Shown here piece by piece: positions 1,749-6,197 of a stretch of 64,000 nucleotides of DNA. The notes below the pieces were generated by a model. The model was not told where the DNA came from and made no database searches. It was given only the letters and a program-made list of their open reading frames with translations. Origin of the DNA: Hydrogenophaga sp. (lineage in GTDB: Bacteria > Pseudomonadota > Gammaproteobacteria > Burkholderiales > Burkholderiaceae_C); contig NZ_JAHBZK010000018.1 in NCBI RefSeq assembly GCF_019635465.1, positions 51,007 to 115,006 on the forward strand. The letters are read 5' to 3'. The position numbers and the translations under genes were made by a program. Within the stretch, counting starts at the first letter, position 1, and each line of letters opens with the position of its first letter.

Positions 1749-2201
1749 TCAGCGGCGCAGCATCTCGATGTGGTCGATGCCGTCCTCCAGGTAGATCGGG
1801 CCGTCGGGCTCGAAACCGTGTTGGCGATAAAAGCCTTGCAGGTGCGCTTGCGCACCAATGCGCACGGGCTGCTCGCCCCAAAGCGTTTGCAGCTGAGTCA
1901 CGGCTTCCTGCATCAGCCGGTGTCCCAGACCGGTACCGCGGGTGGACGGGTCGCTCACCACCCGACCAATGCTGGCCTCGGGAAACTTCAGCGCCGCGGG
2001 CACCAGGCGCGCATACGCCAGCAAGGCCCCGTCGCGCGTGCCCAGCAGGTGGTGGCAGGCCGGGTCGGCGCCGTCCATGTCCTGGAACACGCAGTTCTGC
2101 TCGATCACGAAGACCTCGGTGCGCAAGCGCAGCAGGTCATACAGCGCCTGTGGCGAGAGTGCGTCGAACGGCAGGCAGCGCCAGTTGATCCCGTCGCTCA
2201 A
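1749..2201 (-). CDS. elaA: ElaA-like GNAT acetyltransferase
   Basis: A 150-residue protein matching the ElaA branch of the GNAT superfamily: the N-terminal LRTEVFVIEQNC segment, then an acetyl-CoA loop region around GRVVSDPSTRGTGLG, and a C-terminal YLEDGIDHIEM stretch. It would transfer an acetyl group from acetyl-CoA to an unknown amine. The start overlaps the stop of the upstream GST gene as ATGA, so the two are translationally coupled. Confidence 0.88.
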   Translation of the reverse strand: MSDGINWRCLPFDALSPQALYDLLRLRTEVFVIEQNCVFQDMDGADPACHHLLGTRDGALLAYARLVPAALKFPEASIGRVVSDPSTRGTGLGHRLMQEAVTQLQTLWGEQPVRIGAQAHLQGFYRQHGFEPDGPIYLEDGIDHIEMLRR

Positions 2202-3151
2202 GCCTTCACCTCGCGCAGCACATAGCCCACGCGCGGGAAGTGCACATGCACCGTGCCGGCGCGCTCGTCCTGGCGTTCGACGGTGTAGCGCGTGCGGGTG
2301 GCCGCGCGCAAAGTGCCTTCGGTGGTTTCGGTGCCGAAGGATTCCGCAGCGATGGTGACCCGGCTGCCGAGCGCGATGCCATGGTCGTCCTGGAACACCT
2401 CGTCGGGCTTGATGGGTTCGGGGGTGGCCGCGTGGGCAATGCCGACGGCGTCGGCGCTGCGCATGCGCTGCGGCTGGCCGTGACCAATGGCCTCGATGCG
2501 TTCAAACCACTCCAGCACGTCGGGCGTGCCGTCGAAGATGCCCGCCATGGCCGGGTTGATGCGCAGCGTGAACCACAGCGGATGAAACGCGGCGAAGTCG
2601 GCGACACAGGGCTGCTCGCCCAGCAGATAGGGCTGGTCGTCGAGCATGTTGGCCAGGCGCCGCAGGTAGCTGCGGTAGGCGCTGGTGGCATCGGCCGGGC
2701 GCAACTGGGTCATGTTCACCCGCATCGCCGCGCGGTCGGTGGCAAAGGTCTTGCCCTCTTCGGGCGGCGCCTTGCCGAACAGGGCCGCGGCGCCCTTGGG
2801 GCTGAGCGTGTGGCTCATCGATGCCCAGAACAGGGTGGTGTCGGCCCATTGCGCCACCAGCCTCGCCAGGCCGCGCGCGTGGACCGGAAACAAGGCCGGT
2901 TCGGGCTCGCGGTGTTCGAGCACGTCGGCGATGAGGGCGGTGTCGCAATAAATGTCGGCGCCGATCTGCAGCAGCGGCGTGCGGCGGTAGCCGCCGGTGA
3001 GCGCCACCACGTCGGGTTTGGGCATGACCGAGGGAATGTGCACGCTGTGCCAGACCAGGCCTTTGAAGCCAAGCATGCTGCGCGCCTTCTCGGCGAAGGG
3101 CGACATCGGGTAGTGGTGAAGGATCAGATCGTGCATGGTGGTGGCGTGCAT
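2198..3151 (-). CDS. Glutathione S-transferase family protein with C-terminal extension
   Basis: A 317-residue protein. Residues about 7-85 form a thioredoxin-like GST N-domain, with YPMSPFAEKAR at the usual active-site position (Ser, not CxxC) and a Pro-containing TPLLQIG segment. A helical C-domain follows to about residue 235. The last 70 residues are a beta-rich extension absent from ordinary GSTs of about 200-230 residues. An internal ATG six codons in (MHDLIL) is an alternative start. It lies directly downstream of the palindromic element at 3161-3439, and its stop overlaps elaA. Confidence 0.82.
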   Translation of the reverse strand: MHATTMHDLILHHYPMSPFAEKARSMLGFKGLVWHSVHIPSVMPKPDVVALTGGYRRTPLLQIGADIYCDTALIADVLEHREPEPALFPVHARGLARLVAQWADTTLFWASMSHTLSPKGAAALFGKAPPEEGKTFATDRAAMRVNMTQLRPADATSAYRSYLRRLANMLDDQPYLLGEQPCVADFAAFHPLWFTLRINPAMAGIFDGTPDVLEWFERIEAIGHGQPQRMRSADAVGIAHAATPEPIKPDEVFQDDHGIALGSRVTIAAESFGTETTEGTLRAATRTRYTVERQDERAGTVHVHFPRVGYVLREVKA

Positions 3152-3160
3152 GGCGGGCCC

Positions 3161-3439
3161 CTAAGGATGCTCTTCAAAACCCGCGCCGTGCGCGCCGTGA
3201 CCTGGCGGGATGAGCCGCAAGGCGCGAATGCCAGGGCAAGCCTGAACGGCTTGCCCGCATTCGCAACGCGGCGGATCGCCCGCCAGGTCACGGCCCATGC
3301 GGGTTCGGCCCAAAACGGGCGTGTGCCGCACCTGTTGGTTTGTGTGTGCCACCCGGCACACACGGCACCAAGCAGGCACGCCACTCATCCCGTTTTGGAT
3401 CCGAACGCGCATGGCGGGGGTTTTGAAGAGCATCCTTAG
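3161..3439. repeat. MITE-like palindromic element with 20-bp perfect terminal inverted repeats
   Basis: The ends 3161-3180 and 3420-3439 are perfect 20-bp inverted repeats starting CTAAGGATGC. Pairing continues inward for about 14 bp with two mismatches. Inside are two further large hairpins. One has perfect 16-bp arms (3194-3209 with 3279-3294) and a second inner stem (3224-3242 with 3248-3264). The other pairs 3295-3319 with 3389-3414, with bulges. The whole element can fold into a cloverleaf. It encodes no convincing protein. It supplies the TAA stop of aidB and fills the gap before the GST gene. This fits a non-autonomous miniature element or structured dispersed repeat; no clear target duplication is visible. 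Confidence 0.8.
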
Positions 3440-5094
3440 TGGGGTTGCGCGCGTTCGATGATGGCGTCGACATCGGTGCCGGCGGACAGGCTGCCGAAGC
3501 TGTAACCCCAGTGCCCGCCCAGGCGCGAATCGCAGAAGGCCTGGAATACCGCAGCGGGCGCCGTCTGCGCCAGCAAGGCCGCTTGCACGGCCAGCGCCAC
3601 GTCCTGAGCCAGCCGGCGCGCTTCCATCTCGGTGGCCATTTCTTCCACCCGCAGCGGCAGGCGCGCGGCCAGGTGGTCGAGTGCCGGGTGCATGCCTTTG
3701 GCGGGGGCCAGTTCATGGGCCAGTGCGGCGGCGGCGTCGGCCTTGCGAATGGCGCGCAACAGGTCGAGCGCCATGATGTTGCCCGCACCTTCCCAGATCG
3801 AGTTGAGCGGCATCTCGCGGTAGATGCGGGCCATGATGCCCTCGCCGCCCTCTTCCACATAGCCGTTGCCGCCCAGGCATTCCATGGCCTCCTGGGCAAA
3901 GTGGCTGCCGCGTTTGCAGATCCAGAACTTGGCCACTGGCGTGAGCAGTCGTGCCATCACGGCCTCGTGCGGGTCGCTCGGTCGGTCGAAGGCGCGGGCC
4001 AGTCGCAGCGCCAGCGCCGTGGCCGCTTCGCTCTCGAGCGCCAGGTCGGCCAGCACGTTCTTCATCAGCGGCTGGTCGATCAGGTACTTGCCGAAGGCCT
4101 TGCGCTGCGTGGTGTGGTTGAGCGCAATGGACAGCGCCTGACGCATCAGGCCGCTGGTGCCCAGCGCGCAATCGAGCCGGGTCATGGTGCCCATGGCCAG
4201 GATCTGGGGCACGCCGCGCCCTTCTTCGCCCACGAGCCAGGCGGTCGCGCCGTGGAACTCGACCTCGGAGCTGGCGTTGGCCTTGTTGCCCAGCTTGTCC
4301 TTGAGGCGCTGGATGTGGATGGCGTTGAGCGAGCCGTCGGGCAGCACCCGCGGCAGGAACAGACAGCTCAGGCCGCTGACGGTCTGCGCCAGGATCAGGA
4401 AGGCGTCGCACATCGGCGCCGAGAAGAACCACTTGTGCCCGGTCACGGTGAAACGCTGGCCCCAGTCGTCGCTGCCGTCGGCTTCGGCCCGCGTGGTGTT
4501 GGCCCGCACGTCGGAGCCGCCCTGCTTCTCGGTCATGCCCATGCCCATGGTCACGCCGGGTTTGTCGCGCCAGGGCTTGAGCGCCGGGTCGTAGGCGTGG
4601 CTGGTGAGCTGAGGCGCCCAGTCGCGGTAGATGGCGGCGTTGCCTTGCAGCGCGGGCGTGACGGCATAGGTCATCGAGATCGGGCACAGCATGGAGGGCT
4701 CAAGCTCGGTGAACAGCATGAAGCCCGCGGCCCGGCGCAGGTGTGCGGTGCCGCTGGCCTGCTCGCTCGGCGCAAAGGCGCTGCCATGCAGGCCCGCGCC
4801 AACGGCGGCGCGCATCAGCGCGTGGTAGCCCGGGTGAAACTCCACCTGGTCGATGCGGTGGCCGAAGCGGCTGTGCGTCTTGAGCTGCGGCGTGAACACA
4901 TTGGCCAGGCGTGCGTGCGTCTGGTACTCGGCACTGCCCACCAGGGCGCCCAGGGCGCCCAGGTCACGCAGGGTCGCGGTGTCCAGCCCAGGCGCATTGA
5001 AGGCCAGGGCCGATTGCAGCGCCCTGTTGGTCTCGAACAGGTTCACGTCCACCAGCGGCGCGGGCTGGTTGAAGACCTCGTGTGTCACGCTCAT
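3436..5094 (-). CDS. aidB: AidB-type acyl-CoA dehydrogenase
   Basis: A 552-residue protein matching the AidB branch of flavin acyl-CoA dehydrogenases: N-terminal FNQPAPL, GMTEKQGGSDV, GHKWFFSAP, RLKDKLGNKANASSEVEF and REMPLNSIWEGAGNIM, as in the 541-residue E. coli protein. Family members bind FAD and, in E. coli, DNA, and belong to the adaptive response to alkylation. The start has AGGAG upstream. The last codons lie against the palindromic element, whose terminal repeat contains the TAA stop. The chromosomal setting is lipid catabolism, so a metabolic acyl-CoA role is also possible. Confidence 0.9.
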   Translation of the reverse strand: MSVTHEVFNQPAPLVDVNLFETNRALQSALAFNAPGLDTATLRDLGALGALVGSAEYQTHARLANVFTPQLKTHSRFGHRIDQVEFHPGYHALMRAAVGAGLHGSAFAPSEQASGTAHLRRAAGFMLFTELEPSMLCPISMTYAVTPALQGNAAIYRDWAPQLTSHAYDPALKPWRDKPGVTMGMGMTEKQGGSDVRANTTRAEADGSDDWGQRFTVTGHKWFFSAPMCDAFLILAQTVSGLSCLFLPRVLPDGSLNAIHIQRLKDKLGNKANASSEVEFHGATAWLVGEEGRGVPQILAMGTMTRLDCALGTSGLMRQALSIALNHTTQRKAFGKYLIDQPLMKNVLADLALESEAATALALRLARAFDRPSDPHEAVMARLLTPVAKFWICKRGSHFAQEAMECLGGNGYVEEGGEGIMARIYREMPLNSIWEGAGNIMALDLLRAIRKADAAAALAHELAPAKGMHPALDHLAARLPLRVEEMATEMEARRLAQDVALAVQAALLAQTAPAAVFQAFCDSRLGGHWGYSFGSLSAGTDVDAIIERAQPH

Positions 5095-5118
5095 GCCATC
5101 TCCTCTCGCGGGCCAGCG

Positions 5119-5132
5119 CGGAACCGGCTTTG
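5119..5132. repeat. Short intergenic repeat, copy 1
   Basis: The 14-mer CGGAACCGGCTTTG recurs at 7477-7490. Both copies lie in gaps between minus-strand genes and are followed by GGGCC and further G/C-rich inverted sequence. It looks like a dispersed intergenic repeat family. Confidence 0.5.
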
Positions 5133-5180
5133 TAGGGCCGGCGGCGGCCCCCTGTTGGGTAACGCCGCAGGCCGTACGGC

Positions 5181-6197
5181 TTACACCAGTTTCACGAGTT
5201 GCTTGCCGAAGTTCTTGCCCTTGAGCAGACCCAGGAAAGCCTCGGGGGCGGATGCAATGCCTTGTGCGACGGTCTCGCGCGGGCGCAGCTTGCCGGTGGC
5301 CACCAGCATGCCCAGTTCCTTGAGCGCCTCGGGCCAGACCTCCATGTGCTCGCTGACGATGAAGCCCTCGACCTTGAGCCGGTTGACCAGAATAAGCGCC
5401 GGATTGGCCAGCGGCAGCGGCTGGCCGTCGTAGCCGGCGATCATGCCGCACACGGCGATGCGGCCGAAGGCGTTCATGCGCAGCAGCACGGCGTCCAGGA
5501 TCATGCCGCCCACGTTTTCGAAGTAGCCATCGATGCCGTCCGGGCAGGCTTCCTTGAGCGCCTTGGCCAGCGAGTACATGTCCTTGTGCTCGCGGTAGTC
5601 GATGCAGGCGTCAAAGCCGAGTTCTTCGACCGCGTACTTGCATTTCTCGGGGCCGCCGGCAATGCCCACCGCACGGCAGCCGCGCGCCTTGGCCAGGGCG
5701 CCGAAGGCGCTGCCGACGGCACCGGTGGCCGCGCTCACCACGACGGTGTTGCCCGGCTTGGGGTCGATGATCTTGACCAGGCCGTACCAGGCGGTGACAC
5801 CGGGCATGCCCACGGCGCCCAGGTAGTGGCTCAGCGGCACATGGGTGGTGTCGACCTTGCGCAGCGCGCCCGGCTGCTCGGCATCGACCACGCTGTACTC
5901 CTGCCAGCCGCCCATACCCACTACCTTGTCGCCCACGGCGTACTTGGGGTTTTTCGATTCGGCCACTTCACCCACGGTGCCGCCGATCATCACCTCGCCC
6001 AGCGGCTGCGAGGCCGCATAGCTCTTGCTGTCGTTCATGCGCCCGCGCATGTAGGGGTCGAGGCTGAGGAAATGGTGGCGCACCAGCACCTGGCCGTCCT
6101 TGAGTGGTGGGGTGTCGCCGCTCACGAGCTTGAAATTGCTCACCGTGGCTTCGCCTTGCGGGCGGTTGTCGAGCAGGATCTGTTGGTTCTTCGGCAT
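5181..6197 (-). CDS. curA: NADPH-dependent medium-chain reductase, CurA-like
   Basis: A 338-residue zinc-independent MDR of the leukotriene B4 dehydrogenase/CurA type: N-terminal FLSLDPYMRGRM, PGVTAWYGL, the nucleotide-binding stretch VSAATGAVGSAFGALAK and the YFENVGG motif. These enzymes use NADPH to reduce the double bond of enones. The start follows GAGGAAAC. It is 9 nt upstream of the next SDR's stop and is probably in the same transcript as the neighbouring SDR and thioesterase. The natural substrate is not evident. Confidence 0.9.
   Translation of the reverse strand: MPKNQQILLDNRPQGEATVSNFKLVSGDTPPLKDGQVLVRHHFLSLDPYMRGRMNDSKSYAASQPLGEVMIGGTVGEVAESKNPKYAVGDKVVGMGGWQEYSVVDAEQPGALRKVDTTHVPLSHYLGAVGMPGVTAWYGLVKIIDPKPGNTVVVSAATGAVGSAFGALAKARGCRAVGIAGGPEKCKYAVEELGFDACIDYREHKDMYSLAKALKEACPDGIDGYFENVGGMILDAVLLRMNAFGRIAVCGMIAGYDGQPLPLANPALILVNRLKVEGFIVSEHMEVWPEALKELGMLVATGKLRPRETVAQGIASAPEAFLGLLKGKNFGKQLVKLV

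Follow-up and report, generated by a model that had tools for sequence, protein, structure and literature searches.

The window analysed here, a stretch of 64,000 nucleotides from a Hydrogenophaga sp. contig, carries on its minus strand an aidB-like acyl-CoA dehydrogenase gene (3436..5226; its true start probably lies further in) and, downstream of it, a glutathione S-transferase-like (GST) gene (2198..3151) that stands 284 nt from the aidB stop. Between the two lies an element of 279 bp (3161..3439, no strand assigned) with a cloverleaf-like fold, in which a stem of terminal inverted repeats (TIRs) encloses two hairpins and a linker hairpin. The outer arms, 3161..3182 on the plus strand and 3418..3439 on the minus strand, form a perfect TIR, the left arm reading as an IS5-type end, (Y)TA followed by RGGATGCTCTKCAAAACCC. 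The initial annotation had given perfect TIRs of 20 bp; the repeat search and the fold agree on their perfection and set their length at 22 bp. Complementarity of 92% extends over 37 bp (3158-3194 with 3406-3442). A TA that is a putative target duplication is found on the left at 3162..3163 and on the right at 3437..3438, the latter within the aidB stop TAA on the minus strand.

Inside the TIR stem, the stem of hairpin module H1 (3194..3294, plus strand) pairs perfectly over 16 bp (3194-3209 with 3279-3294), and the module scores 108 bits with R1, a covariance model of H1 alone that was built with the window copy included. The linker hairpin CCC-ATGC-GGG (3294..3303, plus strand) joins H1 to module H2 (about 3304..3405, minus strand, with limits taken from the fold). 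The kinship of the two modules is visible in the window copy as the motif CGGGATGAG in H1 (3206..3214, plus strand), of which CGGGATG is nearly invariant in alignment A2, and as its reverse complement in H2 (3384..3392, minus strand; CTCATCCCG on the plus strand). The predicted RNA fold has a minimum free energy of -208.3 kcal/mol against -118.7 +/- 5.5 for 200 shuffled sequences, none of which equalled it (z -16.4), and the corresponding DNA fold has -126.3 (z -16.7). The element's folding is beyond chance, and RNA folding, which had been suggested as a check, bears out the description of almost the entire 279 bp as self-pairing with two internal hairpins. The longest listed frame wholly within the element has 90 aa, and there is no transposase gene.

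The aidB frame ends CAC TAA, its TAA sitting on the minus strand in the right junction, just as the annotation had placed it in the right TIR. It had also been suggested that insertion replaced the original end of aidB, and here the relatives disagree. Homologues of aidB are present in 57 of the 67 genomes of the genus, and the loci compared were those of the host and 29 relatives (L226-L254). The protein terminates after residue 596 (host numbering) in the host, as it does in 25 of the 29 relatives, and at 597-607 in the other four; therefore, the element is placed in the stop codon and the end of the AidB protein is unaltered. The R1 core is absent from the aidB-GST gap in all 29 relatives; across the 30 aidB loci, R1 found the host element and two weak matches (24-27 bits; L232 and L247) outside the gap. 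Comparison of AidB C-termini and of the empty site, as had been proposed, thus returned an unchanged end and a site free of the core. In the relatives, the distance from the GST start to the aidB stop ranges from -23 to 398 nt and is below 30 nt in 23 of the 29. A different short repeat (about TTCGACARGCTCAGGGCGAACGG) occupies the gap in L239 and L242, and the gap may therefore be a spot that collects repeats.

The IS5 target is given as YTAR in the relevant passage of PMC10359306, and the location of the element in a stop codon is consistent with it. From the flanks, the pre-insertion site would have been CAC-TA-G, a YTAR, and the empty site would have read CAC TAG GGGCCCGCC ATG. Relatives end aidB with TGA in 28 of 29 cases, the exception being L227 (91% identity), whose CGC TAA is the sole CTAA among them. 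TGA is not a YTAR, so in the host lineage the stop must have been TAA or TAG before the element arrived, and this predominance of a non-YTAR stop counts against the explanation that we prefer below.

The host genome (G000, a MAG of 3.9 Mb in 29 contigs, 88% complete) holds four full or near-full-length copies on four contigs, namely C10 (the window copy), C24 (96%), C6 (92%) and C28 (90%). Since these four copies on separate contigs are 90-100% identical, the element is of mobile origin and not a local structure. The statement that a second copy is absent from the window holds, the 20-bp end having no further match in the 64 kb with up to three mismatches allowed (chance expectation 0), and the three additional copies lie elsewhere in the genome. 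A single copy conserved at the same site had been named as the outcome that would speak for a local structure; the opposite was found, with four copies in the host and a site without the core in 29 of 29 relatives, and a structure conserved at aidB-GST is rejected on the latter ground. The annotation's reading as a non-autonomous transposable element or dispersed repeat gains from the spread over four contigs, the empty site in relatives and the IS5-like ends. Among 100 genomes, host included, 13 matched the element at E <= 0.001, seven of them (host counted) over more than 130 nt and six over 52 nt or less only. A tRNA or tmRNA can be discarded, none being present in the window. Carriage by a phage or plasmid is likewise rejected: the window copy had no match among the plasmids or phages searched, a type-c element gave one distant match (a Comamonas plasmid), and two other element types had no plasmid match.

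The host carries a second cloverleaf subfamily with ends at or near CTAGGGCCTGTTCACAC, which accounts for seven further R1 matches (L261-L267, on contigs C5, C9, C26, C28, C23, C25 and C2); the junction TAG of L261 and of L266 closes a 56-codon frame that extends open to the edge of the locus. Palindromes of about 51-57 bp that consist of two TIRs only, without hairpin modules, were seen in L286 (G453), L288 (G404), L075 (G106) and L080 (G007). The type-c elements in L285, L287, L289 and L290 (G453) contain internal GC-rich repeats in blocks of the GGGGCGCCC type, which have apparently been doubled or exchanged between copies.

The ends connect the element to IS5-family insertion sequences (ISs). 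The end TAGGGATGCTCTGCANAACCC, with up to three mismatches, occurs in 38 of the 67 genomes of the genus, against seven hits in total for a reversed control pattern. Several facing pairs of it bound ISs of about 1.18-1.21 kb, including L066 (G025) and L069 (G043), and the end of the G043 IS, TAGGGATGCTCTGAAAAACCC, is one base off the host C6 copy and three off the window copy. The transposases of L066 and L069 each score 329 bits with the NCBIfam IS5-family model NF033581 (cut-off 140). That of L069 (P0001) carries the Pfam domains DDE_Tnp_1 and DUF772 and has relatives in 38 of the 67 genomes; no P0001-related transposase was found in the host MAG, which is 88% complete. TA flanks both sides in four of the eight copies checked, the window copy included, and is missing on one side in the other four. 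These one-sided copies and the lack of a transposase match in the host also count against the explanation preferred below. The ends of the congeners' IS5-family ISs are similar, not identical, to those of the element. In short, the element is like IS5-family ISs and their MITEs in its TIRs, its TA/YTAR target, its small size without a transposase gene and its dispersed copies, but differs from them in its core, which a search of 28 IS loci did not turn up and which is common to elements with other ends.

Only short spacings separate the facing type-c ends listed (in G404, 30 of 51 ends), and thus there is no autonomous partner among them. A search with PF01609 gave matches in six of ten genomes. 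In the best inverted repeat of each of 30 PF01609 loci, IS5-like ends were present in G404, G124 and G233, and ends of type c or d in none.

The position at a stop codon is not peculiar to the window copy. Ten IS5-type end strings gave 179 unique junctions, of which 115 were YTAR; only these 115 were counted in a test that asked for a frame of 150 codons or more ending exactly at the junction. Such a frame ends at 8 of 22 core-bearing junctions versus 4 of 80 at IS-type loci (Fisher p = 0.0004) and 40 of the 1081 YTAR sites that served as controls in these loci (core-bearing versus control, p = 1.4e-6). IS-type junctions are without bias (4/80 versus 40/1081, p = 0.54). When L121 is left out, whose 158-codon frame may be spurious, the core-bearing count becomes 7 of 21 (p = 0.0013). 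The core and IS sets were chosen by locus, the IS set including partial and contig-end loci, and loci with a lone end, as well as others such as L036, L061, L071, L072 and L081, were in neither. Nine of ten junction-ending ORFs examined have Pfam matches (HNH, LuxR-type regulator, DprA, CMD, PAP2, EamA, GNAT, hydrolase and LacI) and one has none; four of the ten (DprA, CMD, PAP2 and the unmatched one) are not among the 22 junctions. The simplest explanation would be that the bias reflects survival, because GC-rich coding DNA offers few YTAR sites and insertion into a TAR stop that follows a pyrimidine would be harmless. Our guess is that the IS-type junctions are younger insertions.

The core reaches much further than the element's own sequence. 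A single-copy query (L014) matched, with the host counted, 14 of the 399 family genomes, from 12 of the 141 genera. In the family, R1 at E <= 1e-4 with up to ten candidates scored per genome matched 182 of the 399 genomes and 84 of the 141 genera; in a sample of the class it matched 38 of 274 genomes and 34 of 221 genera (host included in both), with scores of 70 bits at most outside the family; 197 plus 20 family genomes and 236 class genomes had no match. As a negative control, the second-best R1 match within the window reached 18.8 bits. In 17 stretches from a contig pattern scan, R1 was strong in L117, L121, L122 and L129 (87-109 bits), weak in L120, L125, L126 and L127 (27-45 bits), and null at E up to 0.1 in nine.

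The terminal repeats of the loci read are unlike, with at least six kinds among them. Loci of the single-copy search have in common the core but not the ends: besides the window type TAGGGATGCTCTGCAAAACC, we found TAGGGAAGGTCTGAACAAGTC in L134, L148 and L150, AGAACSTGTTYACGATC in L142, L153 and L122 with a similar end in L143, GCAGGCTGTTGAAATACC in L140 and L146, GGAGCTTGCCTTTCAGATATTTG in L019, and others. Of the R1 matches, 30 family loci (the excerpt of L177 lying off its match) and 26 class loci (that of L258 likewise) were read; in other families of the class, further ends included TTACTAAGACAAACGATAACAAAGCCTCATTCAG (L268), CTAGTACTCTTTCAAGGT (L273) and GGGAAGCTCTGCACGAAT (L270). One locus, L281 (G254:C1:1634000-1637600), holds two cloverleaf elements in opposite orientation 2.5 kb apart, one of which begins some 12 bp before a start codon. 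A composite element around its own gene was considered there and rejected on reading the sequence, since what they flank looks like an ordinary two-component system. The core is undescribed in the PMC literature searched, an absence that is provisional since it is limited to that collection.

H2 resembles an inverted H1 in most of the loci searched. In 27 of 30 chosen loci, seven of the 27 belonging to the host's second subfamily, R1 picks H2 up on the opposite strand, with scores that include 52 bits in L262, 50 in L263, 45 in L141, 43 in L259, 34 in L138 and 30 in L019. At E up to 0.01 it was unrecognised in L001 (the window copy), L134 and L122, the last with 21 bits and E 0.06. From 27 extracted elements we derived alignment A2 (24 rows, without L004, L026 and L030) and alignment A3 (21 rows and 76 pairs, without L026, L030, L141, L144, L145 and L146). 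In A3, 93.9% of paired cells can pair, compared with 75.4% in shuffled and at most 42.7% in slid alignments; 54 of the 76 pairs have changed on both sides versus 35.3 in shuffles, and the covariation score is 0.482 versus 0.156. Both sides have changed in 17 of the 18 pairs of the outer stem, and between the four host copies there are 2-5 compensated pairs where 0.15-0.69 would be expected at random.

In the structure taken as a whole, G.U (33) and A.C (36) are about equal, a balance that speaks against selection on a single RNA strand. In H1 alone, across 46 distinct sequences, G.U exceeds A.C (20 versus 7, p = 0.019), one pair giving 9 of the 20; this excess leans toward a role of the RNA, contrary to a reading at the DNA level. 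In ten hand-read cases of a gene running into the element, the H1 side came first in five and the H2 side in five. Given the covariation, the overall balance of G.U and A.C and the even orientation, we favour folding at the DNA level, maintained either by selection or through correction of one arm by the other as the DNA replicates. The core would then be kept as folded DNA, as a cruciform or a single-stranded hairpin bound by protein, and not as a functional RNA of one strand.

Other readings must be weighed against this. The RNA processing or attenuation element of the initial annotation may occur as a by-product. In its strong form, a cis-acting RNA would be selected at aidB-GST as a site of attenuation or processing by which the ratio of the two products is set, and its case is built on the exceptional stability of the fold, on flanking genes that lie less than 30 nt apart in most relatives (23/29), on the G.U excess in H1 and on the suggestion, in the passage of PMC2229807 on Neisseria NEMIS, that their transcripts are RNase III substrates. 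We judge it improbable, since the core is missing here in 29 of 29 relatives, copies lie at other sites in the genome, both orientations relative to an incoming gene are seen, and G.U and A.C balance over the whole structure. Simple scans yielded no terminator or promoter match, and there was no bacterial Rfam match: the window copy and 15 further loci gave only chance-level matches to eukaryotic miRNAs below the gathering score, so a known Rfam family is rejected for them. Neither the scans, nor Rfam, nor the G.U/A.C balance provides positive evidence for this role.

REPINs are pairs of REPs mobilised by RAYTs, whose genes usually have their own REPs on either side. A REPIN-like origin, with a Y1 (RAYT) transposase recognising the two inverted hairpins and moving the element, would account for the resemblance of H2 to an inverted H1 (27/30 loci, the window copy not among them), which recalls the two inverted units that form a REPIN. 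Y1_Tnp matches occurred in 17 of 20 genomes, which had been chosen mainly for high copy number, and were single in 10 of the 17; the one Y1 protein scored against NCBIfam REP_Tyr_transpos fell just under the cut-off (76.8 versus 80). Yet in none of 30 Y1_Tnp loci (L291-L320, out of 35 matches) did a core match appear within about 1.5 kb (E up to 0.1), so RAYT genes flanked by the core are rejected for these loci; Y1_Tnp matches are absent from G000, G404 and G491, and the window subfamily has IS5-like ends. The element also differs in having long TIRs outside the hairpins, no Y1 gene found beside the core, and hairpins of about 100 nt as against the 20-40 bp given for REPs in a passage of PMC3733652. 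We regard this origin as very improbable. An internally deleted IS5, that is, a decayed IS whose interior folds by accident, would explain why the ends resemble full IS5-family elements, but it is hardly credible when the core model, run on 28 IS loci with E up to 1, finds nothing (0/28, which rejects IS interiors as the source of the core there), one core is joined to unlike terminal repeats, and covariation far exceeds that of shuffles.

Known small elements offer parallels. The Correia/NEMIS elements of Neisseria share a TIR, a TA at the ends and long stem-loop transcripts, and differ in size, at about 107 and 155 bp in the description in PMC2229807 against 279 bp here, where two covarying hairpin modules lie inside the TIR stem. 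QMITE1 and QMITE2 of Coxiella are likewise gammaproteobacterial MITEs with very stably folding transcripts, and one QMITE2 lies at a gene 3' end, like the window element, in the account of PMC5896051. The passage on QMITE1 there reports no orthologues in other genomes.

We therefore return to mobility and consider it highly probable that the window holds a non-autonomous MITE-type element with IS5-family ends, mobilised in trans and inserted at the YTAR stop of aidB. An IS5-family transposase acting in trans would be the most likely mobiliser, and the junctions suggest that insertion into the YTAR that formed the stop codon duplicated the TA. AidB kept its end, as the core-free site in 29 relatives and the shared end after residue 596 in 25 of them show. 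The GST gene would have been shifted from about 9 nt to 284 nt past the aidB stop, and a very stable hairpin would have been added to any shared aidB-GST transcript. Because of this shift and this hairpin, weaker translational coupling would be expected, and RNase cleavage might be invited.

Bacterial MITEs are often described from one species or family, as shrunken copies of one IS. Matches of one hairpin model in 84 of 141 genera sampled in the family and 34 of 221 sampled in the class, with varied ends in the loci read, open two questions to test: how an element that is not autonomous might switch transposase, and why a folded core without a transposase product persists. As a tentative proposal, which we hold with less confidence than its opposite, these elements may form a superfamily of Gamma/Betaproteobacteria with a lasting core of inverted hairpins and exchangeable TIRs, served by several transposases in turn, with folded DNA as the substrate and the stop codon as a safe harbour. 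The stop-codon bias itself suggests a simple reason why YTAR-targeting elements persist at gene ends in GC-rich genomes.
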